The position numbers and the translations under genes are program-made. From positions 15,421,701 through 15,485,700 of the forward strand of contig NC_037272.1 in assembly GCF_000002425.4 (NCBI RefSeq): a DNA stretch of 64,000 bases, given 5' to 3'. Below, piece after piece: positions 2,751 to 53,912 of the stretch (the stretch's first letter is position 1; each line of letters opens with the position of its first letter). This DNA is from Physcomitrium patens (taxonomy: Eukaryota; Streptophyta; Bryopsida; Funariales; Funariaceae). The notes under the pieces are model-generated. The model saw nothing but the letters and a program-made list of their open reading frames with translations. It was not told where the DNA came from and searched no databases.

Positions 2751-2789
2751 TGTTAGGAACATAGTCCTTAGACCTTTCTAGAGACAAGT

Positions 2790-2836
2790 TTCTAGAACCT
2801 TCTAGAAAGAAGTCTCTAGAAACTTCCAGAAGATTC
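2790..2836 (+). promoter_or_regulatory. heat-shock element array in LTR U3
   Basis: 2790-2807 reads TTCTAGAACCTTCTAGAA and 2819-2836 reads GAAACTTCCAGAAGATTC. Each is a perfect run of four inverted GAA/TTC pentamer cores with 2-bp spacing, the consensus bound by heat-shock factor trimers. Further two-core GAAGCTTC palindromes lie at 2964-2971, 2995-3002 and 3014-3021, closer to the TATA box. The same arrays occur in the A2 LTR (21201-21218, 21230-21247), and A3 has one at 18435-18452. Known parallel: the heat-activated Arabidopsis Copia element ONSEN. Heat induction here is inference. Confidence 0.8.
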
Positions 2837-3054
2837 TTTGAATATTCTCTTAGAATATTCTTCAAAGATTCCCTAAAGATTCTTTGAAGATTCTTTAAAG
2901 ATTCCTTTAGAAGACTCTAGAAGATTCTTAGAATATTCTAGTAGATTCTAGGAAGTTATTTGAGAAGCTTCCTAGCTCTTGGGTAGTTGCTCGAGAAGCT
3001 TCATAGTTCTTGAGAAGCTTCTTGATGCGCTTCCTTAGAACCATAGGCCAATAG

Positions 3055-3097
3055 TATATATAGAAGTCGAGGCTGAAGAGTTCTTCAGTCTCGACAA
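3055..3097 (+). promoter_or_regulatory. LTR core promoter, TSS and hairpin
   Basis: TATATATA at 3055-3062 is followed 32 bp later (3055 to 3087) by AGTCTCGACAA, which is also the sequence complementary to the PBS. The start overlaps an inverted repeat at 3066-3095: GTCGAGGCTGAAGA, a 2-bp loop, then TCTTCAGTCTCGAC, with 13 of 14 positions paired. The TATA-to-start spacing fits plant Pol II promoters and independently supports 3087 as the transcript 5' end. Confidence 0.75.
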
Positions 3098-3226
3098 CAC
3101 ATCTCTTGAAGCTCTAGCTCAATTCTCTTGGCGTTACTCTTGTACTCATCTGATAATCTAGTTCTTGTCATTTCTTCTTGAACTTCTTGTTTAGATTTCT
3201 TGTTTGTATTTTTGGTCCGCGACAGT

Positions 3227-3237
3227 TTGTCGAGACT
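3227..3237 (+). other. self-priming primer-binding site of A1
   Basis: TTGTCGAGACT starts two bases after the LTR end. It is the exact reverse complement of AGTCTCGACAA at 3087-3097 in the LTR, the inferred first 11 transcript bases. Tf1-type elements use this arrangement: the transcript 5' end folds back as primer. It replaces the usual initiator-tRNA PBS. Confidence 0.82.
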
Positions 3238-3248
3238 ACCTTTATCTT

Positions 3249-3622
3249 AATATCAGAGCTGAATCCTTCTTGTTTGAGAGCGGATTACCCCTCTTCTTAA
3301 AGGTATTCTAGCGCTTTAGGGGTTGCGGATTACCTTCCTCTAAACTGATATTTTCTCAATCACAATATCAGAGCTTAGTTCTTTGAGGCAGAGAGTGGAG
3401 TACCCCTTTCCTTGGAGATACTTGAGCGTTCTAAGGGTTGCGGATTACCCTCTCTTGGACTGATATTAATTCCTTCTTTTTGTTTAGCATAGCTAGTAGA
3501 AAAGACTGTTAACATCGATTTCAGAGCTTTGCCTTCTTGATAGAGTGTGGATTACCCCTCTTCTCGAAAGCATTGAGGCATTTTTAGAGGTTGCGGATTA
3601 CCCTCCTCTAAAACTGAAATCG
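3249..3622 (+). repeat. triplicated structured leader of A1
   Basis: Three units at 3249-3352, 3364-3467 and 3516-3622 (104, 104 and 107 bp). Each carries two GGATTACC-type motifs and is bounded by an inverted repeat: AATATCAG/CTGATATT in units 1 and 2, CGATTTCAG/CTGAAATCG in unit 3. An inner ACCCCT/AGGGGT-like pair is present. The arms differ between units but stay complementary, which suggests an RNA structure in the untranslated leader upstream of gag. Confidence 0.75.
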
Positions 3623-3742
3623 TTTAGTGTTTTTTTTTCTTTTCTCCGAGTAGGTTTTAGTGACAAGTAGTGCTACAATTTTTTCCAAGAGACGTAGCAA
3701 TTTCTTCTTCTCTCAAAATTTTAATCCATCTATTCTCTAAAT

Positions 3743-4792
3743 ATGGAAGTAGACCAGGTCATAGACAGTGCATCTCTACAAGTAGACAATAGAGTGGCAA
3801 CTCTTGCAGATCTTCAAGCTCTTATGAATAGTGTACGAAAAGAGATTACATTTCTTCGCAATTCAAGTAAAGAACCTCAAATTGATCTAGTGACCGAAGA
3901 AGCTAGATGCAAAATTCATAGCCTACAACAAGAGATTATTCGACTGAGAGAAGCCAGACATGTGTCACATACGACCCCTATAGATACTTCAAGGATTAGT
4001 ACGAAAGAACCAAAAGCGAGTATGCCAGACAAGTTTGACGGAACAAGAGCCAACTTCCGAGGTTTTGTGCAACAAGTACGGCTTTACCTATGCCTATATC
4101 CTTCTCGTTATCCGAATGGATTTACCTAGGTTGCTTTCATAGGTACTCTTCTATCAAGAAATGCTCACTCTTGGTTTGCTCCACTATTGGAGAAGGATTC
4201 TCCAATATTGTACGACCTAGAGGCTTTCATAGAGAGACTTACTGCTGCGTTTGGAGATAGCGATCGAGAAAGAGTGGCTGAAAGAAAGATACAAAATCTG
4301 CGACAAGGATCACGTTCTGCTACAATCTATGCTGCAGAATTTCAACAGCTTATATGTGATCTTGATTGGAATACTAAGGCGTTTATGACACAATTTCGAT
4401 ATGGACTGAGAGATGATGTCAAGAACTTATTGATCACCATGCCTAAGGCGGATACTTTAGAAGAACTTATATTTCAGGTAATTATTTGTGACAACCGCCT
4501 CTTTGAATTACGACAAGAAAGACGATCAGGCTGGAGAAATGATGGAGCATTTGCTACATTTTCAAAAGGTCCAGAGAATCACTCCACAGATCCTGAACCC
4601 ATGCAAATTGATGCGGTACGTTTCAAACCCCTCACAGTTGAGGAAAGGAAGCGACGATTTGAACAAAACTTGTGTTTATATTGCGGAGAAGCGGGCCATA
4701 AAGCTGTAGATTGTCGGAAGAAACAGAAGCCTCAAACAACAAGACTCAGGAGTACAAGCATGCAGGAAAACAAGGACGCCCAGCCACAATAG
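3743..4792 (+). pseudogene. gag: gag of A1 (one internal stop)
   Basis: One frame from the ATG at 3743 to the TAG at 4790-4792, interrupted by a TAG at 4127-4129. The product would be a retrotransposon capsid/nucleocapsid that packages element RNA. Visible parts are an N-terminal helical stretch, the retrotransposon gag core ([12 protein letters not shown] through [12 protein letters not shown]) and a C-terminal zinc knuckle [14 protein letters not shown] of form CX2CX4HX4C. The internal stop occurs at the same site in A2. Pol follows in the -1 frame and overlaps the gag end. Confidence 0.9.
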
Positions 4793-7700
4793 GGATCGTG
4801 CGGCTAGACATCTCAACATTCAAAATTAATGAAGGTCCCTTTCTCTCAGCTCAACCTTCAGATTGTTTTATGGTACCTTTACATCTCGGTATTCAAGAAC
4901 TACAAGTCGATGCTTTATTAGACTCGGATGCATCCGCTTGCTTTATAGATGAAGAGTTTGCCAAGCTTCACAATATTTCTCTTGTAAAGAAACTTAAGCC
5001 TGTCCATGTAGAAGTCCGTCATTTGTTATCCATGAAAGGACACGAAGACAATGATCGTCCGGCAACGATATCCATAAAACTAAACCATTGAAGGTACGTC
5101 TTGAAAACCATGAGAGCAATATTGTGTTTAATGTTATCAAGATCCCTTCATGTCCTATTATTTTGTGACTATCTTCGCTTAATAGATATAATCCATTGAT
5201 AGATTGGAAGTAGCGAAAAGTGACATTTCTAACAAACTCCTTGAAGGTGGAATCTGCCAAGACAATGTCTAAAAACAAATCCTTGTTTATAGGTGCAAGG
5301 GCTTTTATGAAGGAAGCGAAGCAAAATACACCTCTTCTCAACTTCGCAACTTCGACTCGAGAAGATGCAACTCCGACTTTGGTTATTCCAAAGCAGTATG
5401 AAGAATTCAAAGATGTCTTTGAAAAGAAGAATGTTGATATGCTGCCAGAGCATCGACCCTATGACTGTGCCATTGAATTGCAAGAAGGAGCACAACCACC
5501 TTTTGGACCAATCTACAATTTGTCGCAAACGGAGTTGACTGAGTTGCAGAAGTACATTGACGAGAATCTAGCCAAGAACTTCATTCGTCATTCGAAGTCG
5601 CTAGCTGGGGCACCAATCTTATTTGTGAAGAAGAAGGATGGCTGACTACGGGTGTGCGTGGACTATCGAGGTCTCAATAAGGTGACAAAAAAGAATCGCT
5701 ACCCATTGCCTTTGATCTCTAGTCTTCTAGAACAACTTGGGCATGCAAGGATCTTTACAAAGATTGACCTAAGAGGAGCTTACAACCTTGTGCGAATCAA
5801 GGAAGGAGATGAATGGAAGACAACTTTTCGAACAAGGTATGGCCATTTTGAATACAATGTCATGCCATTTGGTCTCACTAATGCTCCAGCGGTCTTTCAA
5901 CACATGATGAATGACATCTTTCGAGAGCATCTAGACGATTTTATTGTCATCTATTTAGATGATATTTTGATATTTTCTAAGAACGAGGAAGAACATGAGA
6001 AGCACGTTCGTCTAGTACTCAAAAAACTACGAGAGCGAGGACTCTATGCCAAATTAGAGAAGTGCTTATTTCACCAAACTGAGATGGAGTTTTTGGGATT
6101 CATCGCGACTACGAAAGGCTTGAAGATGGATCCAAAGAAGGTGGAAGCAATCATGTCTTGGGAAGTTCCGAAGACGGTTAGGGACATACAATGTTTTCTT
6201 GGATTTGCTAACTACTATCGGATCTTCATCAAGAATTATTCTCAAGTTGCTGCCTCCTTTACTCGGTTAACGTGCAAGGACAAGCTCGAATGGGGACCTA
6301 TCGCAGAAAAAGCATTTCAAGATTTGAAGATGGTATTTATTACAGCTCCAATCTTGGTACATCCGGACTTTACAAAGGCCTTTTATTTGGAGACAGATGC
6401 TTCGGATTTTGTTTAGGGAGCTGTACTTTCACAGATGGGCGTAGATTTGAAGCTCCATCCAGTTGCGTTCTATTCTCGAAAATTCTCTGCTGCTGAGATC
6501 AACTATGAGATCCACGATAAGGAATTCCTTGCTATAGTAGATTCTTTCCAAGAGTGGCGCCACTTTCTCGAAGGAACTACACATCCAGTGACCGTATATA
6601 CAGATCACAAGAATTTGGAGTATTTTATGTCGGCTCGAGTTTTGAATCGACGTCAAGCTCGGTGGAGTATGTCGCTATCCAGGTTCGACTTTGTTATTAC
6701 TTATCGGCGTGGGAAGCAACAAGGGTTGTCCGATGCATTATCAAGGAGATCATATCTCGCGCCAAAGGCTGGAGATGCAGCATTTGATCAAGAATGCACG
6801 ACATTGTTGAAGCTAGAGAAATTTCGGCTCAACGCAACTATTGTATCAATTGATGCTGACTTCCTTGACCAAGTACGGGCCGCAACCATTGAAGATTCTC
6901 TAGCCCTTGATATCAAGCAATATGCTAGTGATGATAAATTCAAGATGGAAGGAGATCTAGTATATTTCAAAGAGTGGTTGTATATTCCAAAAGGGTCAGC
7001 ATGACTCCGAGTTCTTCAATCTCGTCATGACTTTCCAGCTGCGGGACATTTTGGATTCAATAAGACCTTGGAACTTATTTCCCACGATTTCTGGTGGCCT
7101 CAAATGTGGAAGGATGGGAAAGATTTTGTTGTATCTTGTGACATTTGTTCAAGATCCAAAAACCCTCGACATCGGCCTTATGGACTTCTATAGCCATTGC
7201 CTATTCCGCGCCGACCATGGTCTTCGATTTCCATGGACTTTATTACGGATCTACCACCATCGAATTCATTTGACAACATTTTTGTTTCGTAGACCGGCTT
7301 ACAAAGATGGCGCATTTTGTCTCTTGCAAGAAGACATCGTCAAGCAAAGACACAGCAAGACTCTTTCTTGATAATGTGTATCGATATCATGGTCTACCAG
7401 ATGATATCGTATCGGATCGAGGAACCCAATTTGTGTCAAAGTTTTGGAAATCTCTTTTTGAAATATTGAAGGTGGATATCAAGCTTTCTTTGACATTTCA
7501 TCCTCAAACGGACGGTCAAACAGAATAGGTGAATCAAGTTTTAGAGAAATATTTACGTTGTACCATCTACTATCAACAAGATGATTGGGTCGCATATCTA
7601 CTGCTAGCCGAGTTCGCATATAACAACACCCTTCATGCGTCAACTCAACAAACGCCATTCTTTTCCAATTATGGATACCATCCGAAGCTTGACTTATGGA

Positions 7701-8290
7701 GTTCGTCAACGATTAACATTCCGGCAGCTGAAAGATTGGTGAAGGAGCTTTCACAGCTTCAAACTACCTTGAAGCTTCAATTGCAAACTACCCAAGAATC
7801 TTACAAGGCGTCCGCGGACAAATTTCGGAATCAGGCACCTAAATTCACGATTGGAGACAAAGTTTGGCTGCTTCGACGAAATATTAAGACCAAGCGGCCA
7901 TGTGACAAATTGGACTCTCGGAGATTGGGACCATTTGTTATCCAGAAGCAGATCAATCCTGTAGCGTATCGTTTGGAGTTACCAGCTACTATGAAGGTAC
8001 ATCCTGTCTTTCATGTTTCTTTGTTGGAGCCTTATCGAGAATCATCTTTTCTTGGAAGAGTAGAATGTCCACCACCTAGCATAGAAATAGAGAACCATGA
8101 AGAATACGAGGTGGAAAAGGTCCTGGATTCACGACAAAGACGGGGTAAATTAGAATACTTTGTGCATTGGAGCGGTTACGATATTAATGAACGAACATGG
8201 GAGCCGGCCAAAAATCTCGCGAATTGGCCACAAAAGGTACAGGAGTTTCATCGACGATATCCTGAGAAACCCAAGCCGGTTCGACGATAG
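4711..8290 (+). pseudogene. pol: pol of A1: PR-RT-RH-IN-chromodomain, broken
   Basis: Polyprotein remnant. The protease has LLDSDASACF where DSG would be expected. The reverse transcriptase (about 5420-6380) has [13 protein letters not shown] and YLDDILIFS. RNase H follows (about 6370-6760). The integrase has zinc-finger remnants, catalytic-core motifs [12 protein letters not shown] and HPQTDGQTE, and a GPF/Y module (RLGPFVIQ). A C-terminal chromodomain is at about 8090-8280 ([27 protein letters not shown]). Breaks include a stop at about 5091 with a frame change before 5220, stops at about 5645, 6416 and 7528, and frame changes at about 7000-7310. Several stops sit at the same sites in A2. 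Confidence 0.92.
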
Positions 8291-8435
8291 CTTCTTATTG
8301 AAGCTTGTTCATCCAGGAAACAGAAAAGAGGAGAGAGCACCACCAAAATCCATAGTTGATGTAGTCATTCTCTCCAAGATAGCGTAGAACTTTGTTAGTA
8401 GGCCAAGTTTGTTCTTATTGTTTTAGCCTTTGAAT

Positions 8436-8783
8436 ATGGATAGCCAAGATACTACACTTGTCATGTCATCTCAAGCAACTAGCTCACAAAGTCGACCGCG
8501 AGATGAAGAACCGCTTGCACCACGACGACGTCGAAGGATTCCGAGCAACAGATCGCTGATAATTGTATTTGAGGTCGAGCCTGCCTACAATGGTCAGCCA
8601 GAAGGAGTGTTTGCAGGACAATTTCACAATGAAGACACGGAGGTTCATGCTTGGTCAAAAGTTGAAGGCGTGGGCCACTACCGTTGGCTTCAAGGACCAT
8701 TGAATCACTTGCCTCGTGAACAACAATTGGAGTTCATAATAGAGGTTATGCGACAGATCTTCATTTTCTTGCGTTGGTATTGA
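8436..8783 (+). CDS. extra 3' ORF of chromovirus A1 (115 aa)
   Basis: Intact ATG-to-TGA frame between the chromodomain and the polypurine tract. The start is the ATG at 8436 (MDSQDTT). The N-terminal third is Ser/Gln-rich, then a basic run (APRRRRRIPSNRS) that could be a nuclear localisation or nucleic-acid-binding signal. The C-terminal part is compact and mixed ([22 protein letters not shown], ending FIFLRWY). No family is recognised. The older copy A3 keeps the C-terminal half as protein ([14 protein letters not shown]... FIFLRWY) despite many base changes. A2 has lost the ATG and gained a stop. No transmembrane or Env-like features are visible. Function is unknown. Confidence 0.65.
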   Translation: MDSQDTTLVMSSQATSSQSRPRDEEPLAPRRRRRIPSNRSLIIVFEVEPAYNGQPEGVFAGQFHNEDTEVHAWSKVEGVGHYRWLQGPLNHLPREQQLEFIIEVMRQIFIFLRWY

Positions 8784-8819
8784 CTGACGATAACATTGCT
8801 TCTCGAAGACCTCAAAGCT

Positions 8820-8833
8820 AAAGGAGGAGGTGA
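8820..8833 (+). other. polypurine tract of A1
   Basis: AAAGGAGGAGGTGA directly precedes the 3' LTR. The same motif precedes the 3' LTR of A3 (27966-27979), and A2 has a close variant at 27247-27260. It is the expected plus-strand primer. Confidence 0.8.
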
Positions 8834-9318
8834 TGTTAGGGACATAGTCCTTAGACCTTTCTAGAGACAAGTTTCTAGAACCTTCTAGAATAAAGTCTCT
8901 AGAAACTTCCAAAAGATTTTTTAAATATTCTTCTAGAATATTCTTTAAAGATTCCCTAAAGATTCCCTAAAGATTCTTTGAAGATTCCCTAAATATTCCC
9001 TTAGAAGGCTCTAGAAGATTTTTAGAATATTCTAGTAGATTCTAGGAAGTTACTTGAGAAGCTTCCTAGCTCTTCGGTAGTTGCTCGAGAAGCTTCATAG
9101 TTCTTGGGAAGCTTCTTGATGCGCTTCCTTAGAACCATAGGCCAGTAGTATATATAGGAGTCGAGGCTGAAGAGTTCTTCAGTCTCGACAACGCATCTTT
9201 TGAAGCTCTAGCTCAATTCTCTTGGCGTTGCTCTTGTACTCATCTGATAATCTAGTTCTTGTCATTTCTTCTTGAACTTCTTGTTTAGATTTCTTGTTTG
9301 TATTTTTTGTCCGTGACA
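8834..9318 (+). repeat. 3' LTR of A1
   Basis: 485 bp, TGTTAG...GACA. It matches the 5' LTR apart from scattered substitutions and small length changes in the AGATTC repeats. HSE cores, TATA box and hairpin are retained. Confidence 0.92.
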
Positions 9319-9357: not shown

Positions 9358-9864
9358 TTATAAACTTACATATTTATTAAAAAGTAGATAAAAATAAATT
9401 AATTTCATAAAATCTTTTAGAAAATCTTCTTAAAAGCTTCATAGTTGCAATTTTAACTTTAAATGTATTTGTAATTGATTGATAGGTTAGAAACTTAATT
9501 AACAAATTAATCACCTGTCACATGTGCTGATAGCTTATTGAAAAAGTCAACTATGTGGTGTATCAATAAGAAACTTACCCTACAAGTTAAGATACATATC
9601 TTGCAAAGTCAAAACAAGTTGGAGGTCCTATAGAGCATTGTCATATAGCTTCTAATTTAACAGTATATATGGAAGTAAGAGTGAAGCTTTCTTCGCTCTT
9701 TTGAATATCTTTTTAGTCCTTAGTATTGTTTCAAGACTTTCTAATCTTCTTAGCAATAGCTATTCTAGTTTACTACTATACCATCTTTCAGTGGTTTTTT
9801 AGTCTTTTTGAGAGGCACAAGAATATATCGATTTTTTAGTTTTTTGAGATTCATATCTTTGATA
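9358..9864 (+). repeat. 5' LTR of B-left
   Basis: Aligns by eye with 56698-57215 along most of its length, including AGTAGATAAAAATA near the start and the GCAATAGCTATTCTAGTTTA-type block. It ends in GATA like the A3 LTR. The left boundary is uncertain because A1 ends only about 40 bp upstream. Confidence 0.7.
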
Positions 9865-11327
9865 GTTTAATAAGAGTACTAACTTATAATTCTTGTCTTC
9901 TTTTACAAGTGAATGAATTATCCTACTTCTATTATTATATTTTAAAGGTTAGAAATTAATCAACTTTAAGTAAATAATTTAGTTTTTAATATTAATCTTT
10001 TCCTTAAAGAGAGTGGATTATCTTTCTTTGTAGAAATATTCATTTGATATTAGAAGTTACGAATCACACTCTTTTAATTTATCATTTTGATTTTTTTTGA
10101 ATTTTTTATAGAATGAATGATTATAAATGCTACTCTTAGCAAAAGTTAGAACAAATTTACAACTATTATAGATCTTTATGAGTTTTTCAATATTCTAAGT
10201 GTAGAAATCTCATGTGATTCTAACATGAATTATAGAAGTAACCATCCTATGTATATGGAAGAAGTCTAGAATCTATACCAAAAAATTGTTCAGTTGAAAG
10301 AAACAAATAGATCAGCATCACAACCAAATTCAAGAAGTCTTGCTTCTATAAGTACTAAAGATGCAAGGATTAGTATGCTTAAGAAGTTTGATGGAATTAG
10401 ATCAAAATTTTAAGGATTTCTACAATAAATTAAGATCTACTTTAAGTTACATCTTTTCCAATATTGCAATAGATTTACTCAAATTGGATTTGTAGATGCA
10501 ATTTTATTGAGAAGTGTTTTTATCTTCATTTATGCTTTTGATGAAAAAATAATCATGACTAATCTATAATTTAAATTCATTCTTTGAAGTATTTATGGCT
10601 ACATTTAAAGAAAGTAATTGAAAAAGAATAATAAAGATCAAGTTCATATTACTATGACAAAGATTACTTTCAACTAATATATAGGCTGCTATATAAGTTT
10701 CTTTAATTACAATAGAAATCATGTGGCTAGAATCTTACATAACATTAAGAAAAGATCTTATTCTCTACTTAAATCCTTAACCTTATTTCACAATAGAAGT
10801 TTTTTTAGGACCTAAAAATCACAAAGTCTTAGTCTTATTAGATTTGAGAGTCTCATCTTGTTTTATAGACAAAGACTTTGTAAATAAATAAGAAATATTA
10901 TTAATCAAGAAACTAAACTAGTATATATAGAAGTCATAGTTGGTTATTTATTATCTTTTAAAGATGTTATCTATAAGACTATTCATTTAGATGTAGCAAT
11001 TAAAGTTTATAATAAGATGATAATATTTAATATAATAAGATCTTTTTTTAATCCAATTATTTTATGATTATCATGGTTGAAAAAATATAATCCTCAGATA
11101 TATTGGATTTCTTATGACCTTAACTTTTCTTATAATTTGATCCAAAATTTTATTAGTTAAATAAAAATACATAAGTCTAATACATCCAAATCCTTGATGT
11201 TAGATACAAAAGCTTTTATGCATGTGGCAAAAGAAAGGTCAACTTTTATTAAATATGCCAGACCTATTTTTGATAGTGAAAAGATATCAAGTGATATTTT
11301 TAGATAAAATTAAGCTTTCTAAGATAT

Positions 11328-16593: not shown

Positions 16594-19500
16594 GTGCAAA
16601 TCTCTCACTCTGCATGTTCAATCTATACTCAGAACAGTTATTGCAATACTTGTACCATATTGATAGTATTGTATTCTGTTTAAAGAAATACTTATATTAT
16701 TCACACTAATATGCTTGTTTGTCCTAGTAGCACAAGAAGATCACTTCCTGAAATCACATTTGAAGCTTTGTAAGTATAAACTTAGACTGTTGTTAACCCT
16801 TCATCTCTAATTGATATTGTTACACCCCGCATGAACTCCCACTAGACAACTAGCTATTAATATGCCTCTTTCTTTTGCACATTTTTTCCTTTCTTTGGTA
16901 TAAGAGAGGGAGATAGTGGATATTTCACAAAAAAATAAGTTGCAAGTTATTTTTTTATAGAAAATGAATATTTGTTTTTAAAAGAATTAATTCAAAATTT
17001 TGTTTTTTTGTTATTATTATTATTATTATTATTTGGCTCCCAAAAATATCAAGAACTTATTTTTCAATTTATTCTTTTCTGGGTCAATATTGGAGTGAAA
17101 TATTAGACTGCCAAATGCACCCTAAGCATAGAAGTACATTTTTTTAGTCAATTTAAATCATGTGGAGGTGACATGGGATGCAACAATATCAATTGGAGAT
17201 GTAACATTAACAGTTTTTTAAATTTAACAAGCTAATGTACATATGCAAACATGTATACACATACATATACACTTTATTGATATATTACATAATATTTTAA
17301 AATCATCCAAAATACTTCAACTTCAATTGTAATTCTGATATTAAATTAATTATATTCAATTAACAAATAGAATTAGATATTACAATATATTTTTTTATTT
17401 TTACTTTTTAAATATTTAAAATAAAATAAGATGTTCAATCATGAATATCATGAAAGATGTCTGTATTTATATTTGAATTTTATTTTTATTATAGAATGGC
17501 AATATCGCAATGTTTTCGGTGATTTTGAAATTCTTGGGCAGCATAGTACAGTGAGCTATTTATCCAGTAAATTGGATTTGAGGAATTGATTGTAAGTTAT
17601 GCTTTAAATGTTTATCCAAATACTGTTCTTGGTGTGCCATTCTCTCTTTTTTTTTTTTTTTTTTTTTTTTTTCTTTGTGGGAAGGTGTTATTGTTGCTAA
17701 CCAAATTTCATATTTCATGGTTGTTCATTGCAGTGAAGGTAAAGTTAGAGATTATATCAGGTAAAAGGTGTGGAGATTACATTCTAATTAGCATGAAGAA
17801 GTGCATAAAAAACTTAAAGTATAATGAATGGCATTAGCAAACTATTCTTATCACCCTACCAAACAAACAAAGAAACAAACAAATAAAATCCTTTAAACGA
17901 TGACCATTGACATGTAAAGCCTACTTTTGCAATACCTTCACCTATGCATTTCACAATCTATAACATAGCTGCACATGCCACATGAATATCTGATGTTTGA
18001 TTAGGATGTTGGAAGTTGGGTTGATTTTGGGGTCATTATATCTAGAGGTCTATTTTGAAAAGTCATGGTAGATTTTTTTTCCAAAGGTTTTCTACATGGT
18101 GAAAAAAAGTCTTTGTTAGAAGTCAAGGTTTTTGAATACAATATAAAATAAAAATAGATCATGAAAAGGATCAATTCATTCTTCTGTTGTAAATCCCAAT
18201 ATATTATTTTATATCTTGATTCTCTCTCTCTCTCCAGATATATATATATATATATATAGATACATATTATCTATGAAAAAAGATTAAATTTAAAATCCAA
18301 AACTTGTATGTATGAATATTATTTTAAATATTTATTTAAGAGTATTAGGAACATAGTCCTTAGAACCTTCTAGAGACAAGTTTCTAGAATCTTCTAGAGA
18401 CAAGCTTCTAGAACCTTTTAGAAGCAAGTCTCTGGAACCTTCTAGAAGCTTCTTAGTTGGTAGAAGATGTTAGGGACATAGTCCTTAGAACCTTCTAGAG
18501 ATAAGTTTCTAGAACCTTCTAGAAGCAAGTCTCCGGAACCTTCTAGAAGCTTCTTAGTTGGTAGAAGTTGCTTGAGAAGTTTCATAAATAGAAGTATATA
18601 TTGGAATCGAGGCTGAAGAGTTCTTCAGTCTCGACAACACATCTCTTAGAGCTCTAGCTCACCTCTCTGGTGTTGTTCTTGTATTCATCTGATTAATATA
18701 GTTCTTGCCAGTTCTTCTTGAACTTCTTCTTAGATCTCAAGTCTGTATTTCTATGTCCATGATAGTTTGTCGAGACTTTGCTCACCTCAAATATCAGAGC
18801 TAGTTTCTTCTTTGTTAGAGTGTGGATTACCCCTCTACTTGGAAGTGTACTAGCATTTTAGAGGTTGCGGATTATCCTCCTCTAAACCAATATTGTCTTC
18901 TTGTAGAGTCATTTCTATCCTTCTCTTAGAATGGCCAAAGGCCAAGACATTAGTATGACGAAAAGTTCAGAGTCCAAGTTAGATGCTATCATGAATGCCC
19001 TTGCTACGTTATCGCAAAAAATTGCAGAGATTGAAGGAGTCGTGGCAAGGCTTCATAATAATGGAACATCTGGGATGGCACAAGCTAGGTTGCACCAGCC
19101 TCAAACTTTTGCACTTGGAGAAGCAACTTTGCCTCAGGTTCGACAAGCACCACTGGTTCTACAACATAAGGAGTCCCGAGTTAGCTTTTCGGACAAGTTC
19201 GATGGTACACGTTCCAAGTTTCGAGGATTCGTCAACCAAATCAGGTTAATAATAGTTTTACAGTCCGAACGCTATCCAATGGAGGAGTCATGTGTTGGGC
19301 TTATTGGAACCTTACTTACAAGACAAGCTCTATCATGGTTTGCTCCTTTGTTTGAGAAACGATCGTCCATACTAAACAACTTTGAAACCTTTTTGGAGGC
19401 GTTTGCGGAAGCATTTGGTGAACACGACAAGGTTCGATGGGCTACAACAAAGATCCGGTCACTACGACAAGGAATGCGTTCTACATCAATCTATGTATCG

Positions 19501-22500
19501 GACTTCAGGTAATTAGCATGCGACATCAATTGGGATGAAGAAGCGTTGATGAGTCAATTCTATTGGGGTTTAAGGGACGACGTGAAGGATTTGCTGTTAA
19601 CTCTTCCTGATCCGCAAACGCTCAATGAAGCTATTAGTCAAGCTGTGAAGTGTGATAACTGCCTATTCCAACGTCGCCAAGACCAACGTTCAAGACAACA
19701 TACCGTTGGCCACATCCCAACTATGTCGGCAAGCAGCGTGAATTCACATTCACAGGTAGAAGACATGCAAATTGATGCGGTACGTGTCAAATCTCTTACT
19801 CTAGAAGAAAAAAAGCGGCGCATGGAAGAAGGTCTATGCTTGTATTACGGTGAAGAAGGCCAAAAAGTGGGAAACTGTCCCAAGAAGCAAAATCGACGTA
19901 TTATCAAGACTAGGGGCACATTTATTCAGGAAAATGAAGATGCCCAGCCTCAATAGGAACTGTGCGGCTGGATAGTGAAATATCGCACCAACAACCAGGT
20001 TCCTTTCTTTCTGTTCAACGTGCCCTTTGTTTTACAATCTCTTTGCTTATTGGCCCTCAAAAACTCAGAACCTTAGCATTATTAGATTCATGAGCATCTC
20101 CTTGTTTCTTAGACGAGGAAGTTGCAAAGCGTCATAAGATCCCTTTAGTACAAAAATCCAAACCTATTCACATTGAAGTCATAGATGGACGACCTTTATT
20201 ATTTGGTAGTGTCACCCATGAATCATAACCTATAGAAGTGACGTTTAAGGGCCATAGTAGTCATATTATTTTCAATATTATTAAACCCCATTAAATCCTG
20301 TTATTCTTGGTCTTTCCTGGTTGGAAAAGCATAATCCATACATAGATTGGAAGTTGCGGAAGATAACCTTTCTCACAAAACCACCTAAGAGCAAGCCTAG
20401 TAGAAAACCCCGAATAGAAAAATCCTTCTTTATTGGAGCAAGAGCATTTATAAGATCGTCCAAGGAAGGCACATTGTTTGTCATTCATGCGACTCTAAGA
20501 TTGGGACCATTTATCATCCAGAAGCAAATCAATCTAGTGGCGTACCTTCTGGAATTACCGGCTTCAATGAAGGTACATCCAGTCTTTCATGTTTCTTTCT
20601 TGGAGCCTTATCGAGAGTTGTCTTTTCTTGGAAGAGTACAATGTCCGCCACCTAGTATTGAGATCGAGAACCACGAGGAATACAAGGTTGAAAAGGTACT
20701 GGATTCACGGCGAAGGTAGGACAAGTTGGAGTATCTTATTCATTGGTGCGGCTACGACATTAATGAGCGAACGTGGGAGCCAGCTGAAAATCTCGCTAAT
20801 GCGCCGCAAAAGGTACAGAAGTTTCATCAACAACATCTTCATAAACCTAAGCCGGTTCGATGATAGCTTCTTTTTGGAGCTTACTCACCTAAGAATATAA
20901 GAAAGGAGGAGAGCACCACCAAAATTCGTAGTTGATGTAGTTATTTTCTCCAAGATAAAATAACATTTTTTCAGTAGCCATAGTTTAGTCTTCTGATATG
21001 GATAGCCAAGAGATAGATACTATGCCAGTCAGATTATCTCAACGAACTAGCTCACGAAGGCGACCTCGAGATAAAGAACCACCTGCACCACGACGATGAC
21101 GGAGGATACCAAGTAACTGATCACTAGTGATTGTATTTGAGTCCGAGCCTACTTACGATGGTGTTAGGGATATAGTCATTAGACCTTTTTAGAGACAAGT
21201 TTCTAGAACCTTCTAGAAAGAAGTCTCTAGAAACTTCCAGAAGATTCCTTGAATATTCTCTTAGAATATTCTTTAAATATTCACTAAAGATTCTTTAAAG
21301 ATTCCCTAAAGATTCCTTTAGAAGGCTCTAGAAGATTCTTAGAATATTCTAGTAGATTCTAGGAAGTTATTTGAGAAGCTTCCTAGCTCTTGGGTAGTTG
21401 CTCGAGAAGCTTCCTAGCTCTTGGGTAGTTGCTCGAGAAGCTTCATAGTTCTTGGGAAGCTTCTTGATGCACTTCCTTAGAACCATAGGCTAGTAGTATA
21501 TATAGGAGTCGAAGCTGAAGAGTTCTTCAGTTTCGACAATGCATCTCTTGAAGCTCTAGCTCAATTCTCTTGGCGTTACTCTTGTACTCATCTGATAATC
21601 TAGTTCTTGTCATTTCTTCTTGAACTTCTTGTTTAGATTTCTTGTTTGTATTTTTGGTCCGTGACAGTTTGTCGAGACTACCTTTATCTTAATATCAGAG
21701 CTGAATCCTTCTTGTTTGAGAGCGGATTACCCCTCTTCTTGAAGGTATTCTAGCGCTTTAGGGGTTGCGGATTACCTTCCTCTAAACTGATATTTTCTCA
21801 ATCACAATATCAGAGCTTAGTTCTTTGAGGCAGAGAGTGGAGTACCCCTTTCCTTGGAGATATTTGAGCGTTCTAAGGATTGCGGATTACCCTCTCTTGG
21901 ACTGATATTAATTCCTTCTTTTTGTTTAGCATAGCTAGTAGAAAAGACTGTTAACATCGATTTCAGAGCTTTGCCTTCTTGATAGAGTGTGGATTACCCC
22001 TCTTCTCGAAAGCATTGAGGCATTTTTAGAGGTTGCGGATTACCCTCCTCTAAAACTGAAATCGTTTAGTGTTTTTTTTTTTTTCTTTTCTCCGAGTAGG
22101 TTTTAGTGATAGGTAGTGCTACAATTTTCTCCAAGAGACGTAGCAATTTCTTCTTCTCTCAAAATTTTAATCCATCTATTCTCTAAATATGGAAGTAGAC
22201 CAGGTCATAGACAGTGCATCTCTACAAGTAGACAATAGAGTGGCAACTTTTGCAGATCTTCAAGCTCTTATGAATAGTGTACGAAAGTAGATTGCATTTC
22301 TTTGCAATCTAAGTACAGAACCTCAAATTGATCTAGTGACCGAAGAAGCTAGATGCAAAATTCATAGCCTACAACAAGAGATTATTCGACTGAGAGAAGC
22401 CAGACATGTGTCACATACGACCCCTATAGATACTTCAAGGATTAGTACGAAAGAACCAAAAGCGAGTATGCCAGACAAGTTTGACGGAACAAGAGCCAAC

Positions 22501-25500
22501 TTCCGAGGTTTTGTGCAACAAGTATGGCTTTACCTACGCCTATACCCTTCTCGTTATCCGAATGGATTTACCTAGGTTGCTTTCATAGGTACTCTTCTAT
22601 CAAGAAATGCTCACTCTTGGTTTGCTCCACTATTGGAGAAGGATTCTCCAATATTGTACGACCTAGAGGCTTTCATAGAGAGACTTACTGCTGCGTTTGG
22701 AGATAGCGATCGAGAAAGAGTGGCTGAAAGAAAGATACAAAATCTGCGACAAGGATCACGTTCTGCTACAATCTATGCTGCAGAATTTCAACAACTTATA
22801 TGTGATCTTGATTGGAATACTAAGGCGTTTATGACACAATTTCGATATGGACTGAGAGATGATGTCAAGAACTTATTGATCACCATGCCTAAGGCGGATA
22901 CTTTAGAAGAACTTATATTTCAGGTAATTATTTGTGACAACCGCCTCTTTGAATTACGACAAGAAAGACGATCAGGCTGGAGAAATGATGGAGCATTTGC
23001 TACATTTTCAAAAGGTCCAGAGAATCACTCCACAGATCCTGAACCCATGCAAATTGATGCGGTACGTTTCAAACCCCTCACAGTTGAGGAAAGGAGCGAC
23101 GGTTTGAACAAAACTTGTGTTTATATTGCGGAGAAGCGGGCCATAAAGCTATAGATTGTCGGAAGAAACAGAAGCCTCAAACAACAAGACTCAGGAGTAC
23201 AAGCATGCAGGAAAAAAAGGACGCCCAGCCACAATAGGGATCGTGCGGCTGGACATCTCAACATTCAAAATTAATCAAGGTCCCTTTCTCTCAACTCAAC
23301 CTTCAGATTGTTTTATGGTACCTTTACATCTGGATATTCAAGAACTACAAGTCGATGCTTTATGAGACTCGGGTGCATCCGCTTGCTTTATAGATGAAGA
23401 GTTTGCCAAACTTCACAATATTTCTCTTGTAAAGAAATTTAAGCCTGTCCATGTAGAAGTCATAGACGGAGGACCATTGTCTTCGGTCAATGTTATCCAT
23501 GAAACTAAACCATTGAAGGTACGTCTTGAAAACCATGAGAGCAATATTGTGTTTAATGTTATCAAGACCCCTTCATGTCCTATTATTTTGGGACTATCTT
23601 CGCTTGATAGATATAATCCATTGATAGATTGGAAGTTGCGGAAAGTGACATTTCCAACAAACTCCTTGAAGGTGGAATCTGCCAAGACAATGTCTAAAAA
23701 CAAATCCTTGTTTATAGGTGCAAGGGCTTTCATGAAGGAAGCTAAGAAAAATATATCTCTTGTCATCTTCGCAACTCCGACTCGAGAAGATGCAACTCCG
23801 ACTTTGGTTATTCCAAAGCAGTATGAAGAATTCAAAGATGTCTTTGAAAAGAAGAATGTTGATATGCTGCCAGAGCATCGACCCTATGACTGTGCCATTG
23901 AATTGCAAGAAGGAGCACAACCACCTTTTGGACCAATCTACAATTTATCGCAAACGGAGTTGACTAAGTTGCAGAAGTACATTGACGAGAATCTAGCCAA
24001 GAACTTCATTCGTCATTCGAAGTCGCTAGCTGGGGCACCAATCTTATTTGTGAAGAAGAAGGATGGCTGACTACGGGTGTGCGTGGACTATCGAGGTCTC
24101 AATAAGGTGACAAAAAAGAATCGCTACCCATTGCCTTTGATCTCTAGTCTTCTAGAACAACTTGGGCGTGCAAGGATCTTTACAAAGATTGACCTAAGAG
24201 GAGCTTACAACCTTGTGCGAATCAAGGAAGGAGATGAATGGAAGACAACTTTTCGAACAAGGTATGGCCATTTTGAATACAATGTCATGCCATTTGGTCT
24301 CACTAATGCTCCAGCGGTCTTTCAACACATGATGAATGACATCTTTCGAGAGCATCTAGACGATTTTATTGTCATCTATTTAGATGATATTTTGATATTT
24401 TCTAAGAACGAGGAAGAACATGAGAAGCACGTTCGTCTAGTATTCAAAAAACTACGAGAGCGAGGACTCTATGCCAAATTGGAGAAGTGCTTATTTCACC
24501 AAACTGAGATGGAGTTTTTGGGATTCATCGCGACTACGAAAGGCTTGAAGATGGATCCAAAGAAGGTGGAAGCAATCATGTCTTGGGAAGTTCCGAAGAC
24601 GGTTAGGGACATACAATGTTTTCTTGGATTTGCTAACTACTATCGGATCTTCATCAAGAATTATTCTCAAGTTGCTGCCTCTTTTACTCGGTTAACGTGC
24701 AAGGACAAGCTCGAATGGGGACCTATCGCAGAAAAAGCATTTCAAGATTTGAAGATGGTATTTATTACAGCTCCAATCTTGGTACATCCGGACTTTACAA
24801 AGGCCTTTTATTTGGAGACAGATGCTTCGGATTTTGTTTAGGGAGCTGTACTTTCACAGATGGGCGTAGATTTGAAGCTCCATCCAGTTGCGTTCTATTC
24901 TCGAAAATTCTCTGCTGCTGAGATCAACTATGAGATCCACGATAAGGAATTCCTTGCTATAGTAGATTCTTTCCAAGAGTGGCGCCACTTTCTCGAAGGA
25001 ACTACACATCCAGTGACCGTATATACAGATCACAAGAATTTGGAGTATTTTATGTCGGCTCGGTTTTTGAATTGGCGTCAAGCTCGGTGGAGTATGTCGC
25101 TATCCAGGTTCGACTTTGTTATTACTTATCGGCCTCGGAAGCAACAAGGGTTGTCTGATGCATTATCAAGGAGATCATATCTCGCGCCAAAGGTTGGAGA
25201 TGGAGCATTTGATCAAAAGTGCACGACATTGTTGAAGCCAGAGAAATTTCGGCTCAATGCAACTATTGTATCAATTGATGCTGACTTCCTTGACCAAGTA
25301 CGGGCCGCAACCATTGAAGATTCTCTAGCCCTTGATATCAAGCAATATGCTAGTGATGATAAATTCAAGATGGAAGGAGATCTAGTATATTTCAAAGAGC
25401 GGTTGTATATCCCAAAAGGGTCAGCACGACTCCGAGTTCTTCAATCTCGTCATGACTTTCCAGCTGCGGGATATTTTGGATTCAATAAGACCTTGGAACT

Positions 25501-28500
25501 TATTTCCCGTGATTTCTGGTGGCCTCAAATATGGAAGGATGTGAAAGATTTTGTTGTATCTTGTGACATTTGTTCAAGATCCAAAAACCCTCGATATCGG
25601 CCTTATGGACTTCTACAGCCATTGCCTATTCCGCGCCGACCATGGTCTTCGATTTCCTTAGACTTTATTATGGATCTACCACCATCGAATTCATTTGACA
25701 ACATTTTTGTTGTTGTAGACCGGCTTACAAAGATGGCACATTTTGTCTGTTGCAAGAAGACATCGTCAAGCAAAGACACAGCAAGACTCTTTCTTGATAA
25801 TGTGTATCGATATCATGGTCTACCAGATGATATCGTATCGGATCGAGGAACCCAATTTGTGTCAAAGTTTTGGAAATCTCTTTTTGAGATATTGAAGGTG
25901 GATATCAAGCTTTCTTCGGCATTTCATCCTCAAACAGACGGCCAAACAGAATGGGTGAATCAAGTTTTAGAGTAATATTTACGTTGCACCATCAACTATC
26001 AAGAAGATGATTGGGCCGTATATCTACCGCTAGTCGAGTTCGCATATAACAACACCCTTCATGCGTCAACTCAACAAACGCCATTCTTTTCCAATTATGG
26101 ATACCATCCGAAGCTTGACTTATGGAGTTCGTCAACGATTAACAATCTGGCAGCTGAAAGATTGGTAAAGGAGCTTTCGCAGCTTCAAACTATATTGAAG
26201 CTTCAATTGCAAACTGCCCAAGAATCTTACAAGGCGTCCGCGGACAAATTTCGGAATCAGGCACCTAAATTCACGATTGGAGACAAAGTTTGGCTGCTTC
26301 GATGAAATATTAAGACCAAGCGCCCATGTGACAAATTGGACTATTGGAGATTAGGACCATTTGTTATCCAGAAGCAGATCAATCCTGTAGCGTATCGTCT
26401 GGAGTTACCAGCTACTATGAAGGTACATCCTGTCTTTCATGTTTCTTTGTTGGAGCCTTATTGAGAATCATCTTTTATTGAAAGAGTACAGTGTCCACCA
26501 TCTAGTATAGAAATAGAGAACCATGAAGAATACGAGGTGGAAAAGGTCCTGGATTCACAGCAAAGACGGGATAAATTAGAATACTTTGTGCATTAGAGTG
26601 GTTATGATATTAATGAACGAACATGGGAGCCGGTCGAAAATCTTGCAAATGCGTCGCAAAAGGTACAGGAGTTTCATCGACGATATCCTGAGAAATCTAA
26701 GTCGGTTCGACGATAGCTTCTTACTGAAGCTTGCTCATCCAGAAAACAAAAAAAGAGGAGAGAGCACCACCAAAATCCATAGTTGATATAGTCATTCTCT
26801 CCAAGATAGCGTAGAACTTTGTTAGTAGCCCAAGTTTGTTCTTATTGTTTTAGCCTTTGAATATTGATAGGCAAGATACTATACTTGTCATGTCATCTCA
26901 AGCAACTAACTCACGAAGACGACCGCGAGATGAAAAACCGCCTGCACCACGATGACGTCAAAGGATTCCTAGCAACAGATCGCTGGTGTTTGTATTTGAG
27001 GTCGAGCCTGCCTACAATGGTCAGCCAGAAGGAGTGTTTGCAGGACAATTTCACAATGAAGACACGGAGGTTCATGCTTGGTCAAAAGTTGAAGGCGTGG
27101 GCCACTATCGTTTGCTTCAAGGACCATTGAATCACTTGCCTCGTGAACAACAATTGGAGTTCATAGCAGAGGTTACGTGACAGATCTTCACTTTCTTGTG
27201 TTGGTATTGACTGACGATAACATTGCTTCTCGGAGACCTCGAAGCTAAAGGAGGAGATGATATTAGGAACATAGTCCTTAGACCTTTCTAGAGACAAGTT
27301 TCTAGAACCTTCTAGAAAAAAGTCTCTAGAAACTTCCAGAAGATTTCTTGAATATTTTCTTAGAATATTCTTCAAATATTTCCTAAATATTCTTTAAAGA
27401 TTCCCTAAAGATTCATTTAGAAGGCTCTAGAAGATTCTTAGAATATTCTAGTAGATTCTAGGAAGTTATTTGAGAAGCTTCTTAGCTCTTTGGTAGTTGC
27501 TCAAGAAGCTTCATAGTTCTTGGGAAGCTTCTTGATGCGCTTCTTTAGAACCATAGGCCAGTAGTATATATAGGAGTCGAGGCTGAAGAGTTCTTCAGTC
27601 TCGACAATGCATCTCTTGAAGCTCTAGCTCAATTCTCTTGGCGTTACTTTTGTACTCATCTGATAATCTAGTTCTTGTCATTTCTTCTTGAACTTCTTGT
27701 TTAGATTTCTTGTTTGTATTTTTGGTCCGTGACAGATGGTCAACCAGAAGGCATATTTGCAAGACAATTTCACAATGAAGACACGGAAGTTCATGCTTGG
27801 TCAGAAATTGAAGGAGTGGGCCACTACCGTTGGCTTCAAGGGCCGATGAACCACTTACCTTGTGAACAACAGTTGGAGTTTATAGCAGACGTTATGCGAC
27901 CGATCTTCATTTTCTTGCGTTGGTACTAATTGACAACAACATTGCTTCTCAGAGACCTCGAAGCTAAAGGAGGAGGTGATGTTAGGGACTTAGTCCTTAG
28001 AACCTTCTAGAGACAAATTTCTAGAAGCTTCTTAGTTGGTAGAAGATGTTAGGGACATAGTCTTTAGAACCTTCTAGAGATAAGTTTCTAGAACCTTCTA
28101 GAAGCAAGTCTCTAGAACCTTCTAGAAGCTTCCTAGTTGGTAGAAGTTGCTTGAGAAGCTTCCTAAATAGGAGTATATATTGGAATCGAGGCTGAAGAGT
28201 TCTCCAGTCTCGACAACACATCTCTTACAGTTCTAGCTCACCTCTCTGGTGTTGTTCTTGTATTCATCTGATTAATATAGTTCTTGCTTGTTCTTCTTGA
28301 ACTTCTTGTTGAATCTCAAGTCTGTATTTCTGTGTCCGTGACAAAGAGCCACATCTTGAGATGGACCCAAAAGAAATCTTGGATGGTAACACTATTCATA
28401 CCATTAAGAAAAGAAAAAGGAAAAGAAAAAAACCATCTCAACTTTTCTTCTTAAAGCTTTAAACTGATTTTTGTAAAGCCTAAGTTCAAGTTAATTAGTC

Positions 28501-50965: not shown

Positions 50966-51955
50966 ATGGGAGATCAAAATCATGGATTTTCATTACTAGG
51001 TGGAGTGGGTGCCTATGATTTATTTATGGTATTTGCTCAATTTATGGAAGAGAGACAATAAGTACATGGAGAAAATAAAAACACTACTAAAGCTTTATAA
51101 GTAGTGGTGGATAAGGTTAGAAGATTTGATGGAAGGAATATTTTTAAGCTCCTAAGGATTTATACATATGAAATGGAAGTGTATCAAGTTTCATAAATGA
51201 AGATAATTACCACATTTGATTTGGCAATGATACCAAAAATCAGAGAGAGAATATAAGAGTTACATACTAAGGCTATATTATAGAAGAAATTTGAAGAACT
51301 TTTGAAGGATGAATTTTTTGAAGAAGATTCAATAAGAATGACTAAAGTGACTTTTTTGGAGTGGATCAAGCAAAGGCCGAGAAATCAAATGGCTCCAAAT
51401 GAGTTAATTAAGGAATTTGAAACTAAGTTTGGATAATTGTCATGACAAGAGAGACAATTCTTGGAAACAAAAAAAATTGAATTATTCTTGCAAGCAGCTA
51501 ATGAATATTTTGAGAATAAGATACTCTTTTATTTGATAGATAATAAATCTAAGAGTAGTTTTATAAATAATTAGAAGCTACTAAAAGAGACAATGGAGCT
51601 TTTGGCTAAACAACAGAAGATTAAGACTTGTGGTTTAATATCAAGGTAGAGCTAGTGCTTGAATTTCAAAATCTAGTGCCACCTCAAAAAGTAATTAAGA
51701 CTATAAAGGATGATGCTCTTGAAGAATTAATCAAAAGCATACAATATTTGAAGGTGAAAATGATTAAATTAAAGAAATCCTACATGACAAGTTCATCAAA
51801 GACAATTGAAGGATCAAAGGGATTTGTAAAAAGATATATGTGGTGTGACAATCCAAACCACAAGCATGGTGAGTATGATAGCTACAAGGCTGCAATCAAG
51901 GATGGTATTGTATATTTTAAAGAAAGTAGGATAAGACTTACAAGGGCCAAATGAA
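50966..51955 (+). pseudogene. gag: gag remnant of element D
   Basis: ATG at 50966. Blocks include KVRRFDGRNIFKLLRIYTYE, a gag core with SIRMTKVTFLEWIKQRPRNQ, and after several stops the knuckle-like CDNPNHKHGEYDSY, in which the final Cys position is Tyr. Followed by YFKESRIRLTRAK and stops. Confidence 0.65.
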
Positions 51956-53912
51956 GACTAATGTTGAGAAAGGTGGTATGAAAAAATTAGTAGAGGACCA
52001 AACATTAAAGAATAATGCCATATAATGAAAAGGAATTGAGTCTTACTTTATTATAGTTGAAGAAAAAGTAGTTAAGGCTATTTCTTTATTAACTACGGAA
52101 CCTATGATCAAAGGATCTAAAGCTATGAGAAAAATAATTAGATGGAATGATTTAGTTGATGCTATTAGTATTAAAATATTTTTATGTGGAAACAAACATA
52201 ACAATAAATTACATGATGCCATGGTTGAAGAAAAAAAAATAGAGCCATTGATGAGGAGGATGTTGAGTCTGAAAATAAAAAGAGGTCTCTAAAAAACAAA
52301 GAAGCTTTTAAAGAGAAAAAATCAGAAAAAATGCCTTCTTCTACTTATTTTGGTGGTGCATCATTACCAAAAGAGTGGTGGAAGAAGGCCAAAGAGAAGA
52401 AGAAAGATGATACAAGCAAATCTAAAGATAAAAATCTTACTTCTAAGCTTCAATTTGATATTGAGACATCTATAAATATGAAGAGCATTTTAGAGGAAAA
52501 GATCTTAGATGCCAAAATTGAATTCACTCTAAGATATACCTAAAAAGGATTTCTATGAGTTGATCATTAATGTGATAAAGAAGAAGAGATAAATGACAAC
52601 TAAAGCTATTATGGTAGAGGCATTGAATACTCAAATAACTGTGGATGACGAAGAAGAGATAAAACAAGTATTTACACAATTTATAATGCCAAAAGTTAAA
52701 AATAAGGTTGATATGAGAGACAAGGCTTTAACTAAATATGAAGAGGCTATAGAAGAACATCAAATGAAATATACATCTATAGAATTTATTGAGATAAAGA
52801 AGAATACAATAGAAGTATGTATAAACACTTGTTCTAAATGTGATAATGATGGAATAGGAAGAAGTAGCTATTTAGTTCTTTATTGGACTAGAGCTACAAC
52901 AAAATCATATATAAAGTTGAGAGATTTTAAAGATCTAATTTTGGCTTTAGTTGATCATAGAAATAAAATCAACATTATGTTAAGGGAGATATATGAGAAG
53001 AACAAGTGGCCAATTGATATCAACCATGCTTGAATAATTAGAGCTACAAAAAACCAACAAGGTGATTTATATTGAACTTGTTTAGCCGTAAAGACTAAGA
53101 TTGGAGATATAGAAGTGGAACAAAATTTCTTTGTGTAAAACATTGCTTCATATTTGATAATACTTGGTCAACCTTATATTACAACTGTTATAATAGAAAC
53201 TTGAATCTTGAATGATGATTCACATTATACCAAGATTCGTAGTTGGGATAGAAGAAAAGCTGTGTAATTTATTACTGTAAAATCTATCCATGAGAGGCAC
53301 AAAGAAAAATTAAGAAAGATGTCTTTGGAGCTAAGAAATAATTTTGTGGATTTTTAGAGAGTACCCCTGTAGGATGAGGATACATGGATGTAAATAAATT
53401 GTTTGCAAAGTCCAATGTAAATAATATAAGTTTTGGATTTTTGAACTTGATTAATAATAGATTTGTGAATATTTAAAAGATTAAAGATTTAGATTCTATA
53501 AATAAAAGAAAGATAAAGAAATAAGATTTTTTTATAAAAAGAATGGATTTAGTTTCAAATGATGAAGCTATAGTTAGAATAATAGAAGAAATAGGTATAA
53601 AAGATGATTTGATAAAAGTTCTAGAAAATTTAGCTATAAGCAAGGATAGAGATGTTAAAGTAGAAATAAACTCAAGAAAGATATATGAAGAGTTAAAAAG
53701 GATAGTAGAAAATAGTGAGCTAACTATAAGCTATAGATTGAAACATGAGGCAAAAATATACATTAAATATAAAATTATAGTAAGAAAGGTAAAACCTAGA
53801 GCCATTCAATTATCAATTGGTACTATAGAGTATATCAAGCAAATAGCTAAAAAACAAAGTTTAAGAGAGAGAAAAAATTACACATTAATTTGCTTAAGAA
53901 TCATTAGTTAAA

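Follow-up and report, generated by a model that had tools for sequence, protein, structure and literature searches.

How does an LTR retrotransposon start reverse transcription when its primer-binding site (PBS) is complementary to its own LTR? This question is raised by a 64,000-nucleotide stretch of Physcomitrium patens DNA (the window, by which I mean the whole stretch that was analysed). Three LTR elements, called A1, A2, and B here, were found in the window (Table 1). Pfam domains of gag, RT, RNase H, integrase, and chromodomain were identified, and a frame at the expected position of the protease had no Pfam match. The preliminary description had placed all three elements in one family. 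Instead, A1 and A2 form one family, while B is more diverged and hosts A2, which is nested inside it. The gag-pol region of A1 is split over several frames, the coding frames of A2 and B are broken, and most of pol is missing from B. The two LTRs of each element are 94.5% (A1), 95.5% (A2, with the first four bases of the 3′ LTR left out, as it was entered from 27265), and 93.9% (B, with the LTRs covered from 18468 and 28047 only) identical. A1 has no target site duplication (TSD), its flanks being CCAAT and TTTAT. An array of units of about 8 bp of the CTCTCCAA type at 2396-2770 ends at the 5′ LTR of this TSD-less element. On the minus strand, an eroded LTR remnant at 2320-2330 carries TATATATTGG and AGTCTTGACAA as well as the decayed arm of a hairpin; this deaminated remnant is probably an old piece of the A/B group.

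Table 1. Features of the A and B elements, with positions counted from the first base of the window
Feature	Position	Strand	Remarks
Element A1	2751-9318	+	LTRs 2751-3224 and 8834-9318
Element A2	21162-27734	+	LTRs 21162-21666 and 27261-27734; TSD GATGG at 21157-21161 and 27735-27739
Element B	18343-28343	+	5′ LTR 18343-18764, 3′ LTR 27980-28343; TSD AAGAG on both sides
TATA box of the A1 5′ LTR	3055-3062	+	32 bp before the primer
13-bp U3/R hairpin, 3′ arm overlapping the primer	3066-3095	+	copies 9160-9189, 21508-21537, 27576-27605, and both B LTRs
Self-primer AGTCTCGACAA at the predicted 5′ end of the transcript	3087-3097	+	further copies 9181, 18627, 27597, 28206
Two-base spacer GT, LTR end to PBS (A1)	3225-3226	+	
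Self-PBS TTGTCGAGACT	A1 3227-3237; A2 21669-21679; B 18767-18777	+	two bases past the LTR end
tRNA-Met-PBS-like 12-mer TAATATCAGAGC	3248-3259	+	10/12 to plant PBS TGGTATCAGAGC; overlaps the 5′ strand of module 1
Leader module 1	A1 3249-3352; A2 21691-21794; B 18790-18894	+	
Leader module 2	A1 3364-3467; A2 21806-21909	+	
Leader module 3	A1 3517-3621; A2 21959-22063	+	
A2 open frame, RT and start of RNase H	24077-24841	+	counterpart in A1 5652-6416
A1 open frame, C-terminal portion of the integrase, including SH3_Tf2-1 and chromodomain	7529-8290	+	aromatic residues Y, W, Y line up with CDYL/CDY chromodomains
Polypurine tract AAAGGAGGAGGTGA before the A1 3′ LTR	8820-8833	+	similar tracts precede 27261 and 27980

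The PBS TTGTCGAGACT is the exact 11-nt complement of AGTCTCGACAA in the LTR, and TATATAT begins 32 bp upstream of the latter. The spacer between the 5′ LTR and the PBS is GT in A1, A2, and B. Thus, the preliminary description was right that in three elements the PBS follows the LTR at a distance of two bases and that an 11-base complement lies 32 bp from the TATA box. There is a one-base exception in the 5′ LTR of A2, whose primer copy at 21529 has a C-to-T change (AGTTTCGACAA); because of this single change, the longest exact complement there is only 7 nt. The three 11-mers of B are intact. The two 11-mers have 8 exact occurrences in the window, compared with 0 in 100 shuffles. The match had also been called hard to get by chance. 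Indeed, of 20,000 shuffled LTRs, only 25 (A1), 31 (A2), 22 (B), and 38 (L001, a relative from another source) had an 11-nt complement at any position, and these counts of 22 to 38 leave the position of the TATA box out of account. Since the distance from the TATA box is fixed and the arrangement recurs in other families, chance is untenable as an explanation of the complement. Folding of the RNA start, one of the checks that had been proposed, predicted pairing of the primer with the PBS within the first 214 nt at 0.71-1.0 per base.

Is this arrangement common in the host genome and elsewhere? Another proposed check was a search for LTRs with a complementary 11-mer just past the LTR. In the host genome, a search for such pairs gave 1429 exact primer-plus-PBS pairs (737 + 692) at 115-145 nt, compared with 0 for the reversed-pattern control. 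L001 has a 12-nt complement. The sequence TTCAGTCTCGACAA has 2096 + 2114 exact places in the same genome, compared with 2 + 2 for its reversed form. From 147 places found by RT, 20 upstream stretches were drawn, and 19 were examined after L028 had been left out. In 17 of the 19, the TATA box at -32, the primer, the two-base spacer (GT in 16, AT in L023), and the PBS are all present; the remaining two have one changed PBS base. I also opened the first 30 places of the genome-wide pair search, all of which lie on contig C1 and some of which are near-duplicates; the TATA box lies 32 bp upstream of the primer in 29 of them and 30 bp upstream in one. Identity among five family representatives is 1.00 for the primer, 1.00 for the PBS, 0.97 for the hairpin described below, and 0.96 for the TATA box, while it is 0.54 in the upstream U3, 0.77 in the rest of R-U5, and 0.26 in the spacer from the PBS to the first module. 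An identical 11-mer is carried by 34 of 36 TATA-context sites, and among the loci examined the primer and the PBS never change together, so no compensatory change supports their pairing.

L001 has 92% RT identity, and 142 nt separate the arms of its 12-nt complement. It lies on a contig in a cyanobacterial MAG, which I take for moss contamination. L001 and L005 are two chromovirus contigs in a genome deposited as a cyanobacterium (AVDCRST_MAG81), and both are probably eukaryotic contamination. Seven of the loci L002-L009 have no primer/PBS pair with a TATA-like box. L003 has a 9-nt pair with arms at 2368 and 2629; the latter arm lies within the RT match, and the pair was judged to be due to chance. 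No relatives were found in viral_contigs, either by RT or by a 25-base LTR pattern.

How the 5′ primer copy is told from the identical 3′ copy is a question for any self-primed LTR element. If the present reading is right, the element RNA suggests an answer. A hairpin (GTCGAGRCTGAAGA..TCTTCAGTYTCGAC) is predicted around the presumed start, with a folding energy of about -22.5 kcal/mol and z scores of -5.6 and -6.1 in two copies; it is weaker in the 3′ LTR of B (-14.4 kcal/mol). The predicted energy is -15 kcal/mol or better at 31 of the 36 TATA-context sites and at 28 of the 30 genome places, two sets which overlap by one or more sites, and weaker at the other 5 and 2, respectively. Because the predicted transcription start falls inside the hairpin, the 5′ primer copy would lack the U3 arm, which is present in the 3′ LTR. 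The idea of a guard comes from this difference: by masking the 3′ primer copy while the 5′ copy remains accessible, the hairpin would reserve the PBS for the 5′ end. In the folding model, the gain from primer-PBS pairing is -15.6 kcal/mol without the U3 arm (free 5′ end) and 0 with the arm (3′ copy). In the same model, the hairpin would compete with PBS pairing or prevent it if transcription began more than about 16 nt further upstream.

A promoter palindrome, that is, a protein site or an initiator with no guarding of the 3′ primer copy, is a strong competitor of the guard idea, with a chance that I put not far below even. The hairpin arm sits between the TATA box and the predicted start, so a promoter function could explain its conservation, and the TATA box is equally conserved. 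However, the 3′ primer copy is part of the stem, from which the 5′ copy would be left out, and the stem abolishes the predicted PBS pairing of the 3′ copy. Moreover, both arms are conserved in the five family representatives where the remaining U3 is not.

The leader 3′ of the PBS has tandem modules of 104 nt, each predicted to fold into a three-way junction. There are one to three modules per leader: three in A, one in B, one in L001, and two in the RT-picked elements. The 30 leaders of the genome search all have at least one module (one to three), with extra modules in two of these loci. Are these simply repeats without an RNA function? Duplication can yield tandem copies, and the varying number would fit, but this explanation is very improbable given their presence in all 30 opened leaders and their covariation, which lies far above the shuffled and slid controls. 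When 8 copies (7 distinct) were aligned with MAFFT, double changes were seen in 14 of 38 pairs, compared with 6.3 after shuffling, and the 7 distinct sequences have 25 double-change cells, compared with 8.8. The signal in this alignment is abolished by sliding the pairing partners. A larger set of 32 distinct module rows, whose alignment was made to the model and so leans to the structure, behaves likewise on most measures. It has 113 double-change cells, compared with 43 after shuffling, and 15 double-change pairs, compared with 10.8 (reached by 6 of 500 shuffles), while the number of pair types in the 32 rows is no better than after shuffling (155 of 500).

The predicted folding energy of the modules alone is modestly unusual (z from -1.5 to -3.4), and a search of Rfam gave no match at the gathering score. 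Weak Rfam matches at 2776-3034 lie in the repetitive U3, not in the leader, and were rejected. A weak match to the module model (24.9 bits) at 9988-10086 is outside any A or B leader and was left out of the later analysis. Most likely, the modules serve as a packaging or dimerisation signal or as a scaffold of the primer complex. As covarying units, they are a concrete target for tests of packaging or primer assembly.

Which primer is used can be read from the ends of the LTRs. The right end of an LTR is set by the minus-strand primer, and integrase usually trims two bases. Among the 16 readable elements (of the 19 RT-picked ones), 14 have an exact 5-bp TSD directly past the 3′ LTR end GACA, and the other two have a TSD matching at 4 of 5 positions. 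At nine control offsets, +23 among them, no TSD match was found in these 16 elements. Thus, the TSD places the right end of the LTR two bases before the PBS and locates minus-strand priming at the self-PBS, no more than about two bases from the LTR. If integrase trimmed two bases as usual, this geometry is indirect evidence that synthesis of the minus-strand cDNA sets out from the LTR-proximal edge of the PBS. The PBS begins with TTG, not TGG, and therefore no CCA-ending tRNA fits; a TGG-starting tRNA PBS, as in CRM, Tekay, Reina, and Galadriel, was not found in the first few bases past the LTR. As in Tf1, the PBS is complementary to LTR sequence and not to a tRNA 3′ end.

The absence of an initiator-tRNA PBS, as claimed in the preliminary description, holds for this site. 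However, a similar sequence, TAATATCAGAGC, lies 23 nt past the LTR end. Does a tRNA prime there, the 11-nt match being secondary? The tRNA matching TGGTATCAGAGC is presumably initiator Met. The available text of PMC7215508 quotes this 12-mer as a plant PBS that is conserved and complementary to a tRNA. It is matched at 12/12 in 15 of the 19 RT-picked elements (leaders of L019-L038), at 10/12 in A, and at 9/12 in B. Nevertheless, priming at +23 would leave 23 extra nucleotides on the 3′ LTR, which was seen in 0 of the 16 readable elements. The 12-mer is also unevenly conserved: only 3 of the 30 leaders of the genome pair search have the exact form, the others having AGATATCAGAGC (14), TAATATCAGAGC (6), TAGTATCAGAGC (4), TGGTATCAGAGT (1), or other versions (2), and L001 lacks it. 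In addition, it overlaps a covarying stem strand of module 1. Thus, priming by tRNA-Met is very unlikely, and it was rejected mainly on the LTR-end geometry, more than on the uneven conservation. I read the 12-mer as a coincidence or a relic; within the stem of module 1, TGGTATCAGAGC is possibly a fossil of tRNA priming. Scarcely credible is priming of the same PBS by a cut internal tRNA fragment or another host RNA ending in AGTCTCGACAA: the PBS position would suit every primer that ends in this way, and half-tRNA priming has been predicted for plant copia lineages (PMC6317226, available text), but the same 11 bases at TATA+32 in the LTR would be left unexplained, and no tRNA gene was found within the window.

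Self-priming of the Tf1 type is thus the best explanation and is well supported. In this reading, which was also that of the preliminary description, the complement, the TATA+32 position, the LTR-end geometry, the cross-family conservation, and the genome counts stand, while the transcript start and the cleavage are predicted. A1, A2, and B are very probably degenerate members of a large group of self-priming moss chromoviruses that are of the Tcn1 (Tf1/Sushi) type. The chromodomain match has an E value of 3.5e-16, and the integrase chromodomain has an aromatic cage; the Y, W, and Y of A1, compared with CDYL/CDY, are presumably the cage positions. The host is a non-seed plant, as expected for the Tcn1 clade. 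The nearest named RTs are from a frog (60%) and fungi (56%), and that of Tanacetum is 46% identical. An unrooted tree of 17 RT rows, in which 6 of 14 inner branches are open, joins A1, A2, L001, and L018 firmly to one another but not to any wider group. The RTs of A1 and A2 are 89% identical to that of L018, which belongs to the abundant RT-picked family. This family is probably RLG1, a very abundant gypsy element of P. patens with an integrase chromodomain (PMC7466625). A1 and A2 belong to a related family, and the available text of that article does not treat priming.

The core of this reading is already known as a prediction. Neumann et al. (2019) predicted self-priming for the Tcn1 chromoviruses of mosses and club-mosses (PMC6317226), so self-priming in a plant is no surprise, and the moss group is a well-supported instance of it. 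According to the available text of the same article, that clade shares with the present elements the moss host, the aromatic-cage chromodomain, the lack of a tRNA PBS at the LTR, and the predicted self-priming. In contrast, the U3/R hairpin, the leader modules, and the LTR-end test are not mentioned in that text. Likewise, no report of the hairpin or the modules was seen in the titles or abstract openings of the matches listed. For SM-Tcn1 of Selaginella, the authors of PMC2864245 found no evidence of self-priming. Self-priming was proposed for the fungal Tcn1 of Cryptococcus neoformans (PMC7175516, available text); a Cryptococcus RT match, perhaps Tcn1 itself, is 56% identical.

In Tf1 of Schizosaccharomyces pombe, the first 11 bases of the transcript are complementary to the PBS (available text of PMC7175516 and PMC4600332). 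The moss elements have the same 11-base complement, while the host, the sequence, and the leader differ, and the cleavage has been shown experimentally in Tf1 but is assigned to the moss elements by analogy. Transcription of the LTR is predicted to begin at AGTCTCGACAA, 32 bp past the TATA box. The first 11 nt of the transcript would fold back onto the PBS TTGTCGAGACT, two bases past the LTR. The RNase H of the element, the domains of which are present, would cut between nucleotides 11 and 12 as in Tf1, and by the same analogy DNA synthesis would run from the released 3′ OH into U5. Meanwhile, the primer copy in the 3′ LTR would be locked in the 13-bp hairpin by the U3 arm just upstream, and the 5′ copy, lacking that arm, would stay available for the PBS. 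The modules past the PBS may serve in packaging, dimerisation, or scaffolding of the primer complex. If this is right, a very abundant moss retrotransposon group, probably that of RLG1, needs no host tRNA to begin reverse transcription. As a tentative and rather speculative extension, these parts may form a two-part RNA device: the hairpin split by the start site would expose the 5′ primer and lock the 3′ one, the modules, each with two GGATTACC-type hairpins, would recruit Gag or RT and set the primer complex, and the tRNA-Met-like strand of module 1 may be left over from an ancestor that was primed by a tRNA.

The window has a few other features. Frames at 51628-54827 are apparently another retroelement; they include an RT fragment (RVT_1, E value of 5e-11, 54348-54824) and three neighbouring frames without a Pfam match. 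A long ORF on the minus strand (62992-63969) has no Pfam match and 20 database matches, the three named ones being one from Physcomitrium (44%) and two from Sphagnum (45% and 41%). Finally, a 269-bp direct repeat pair, 75% identical, lies at 9483-9751 and 56827-57095, 47 kb apart.
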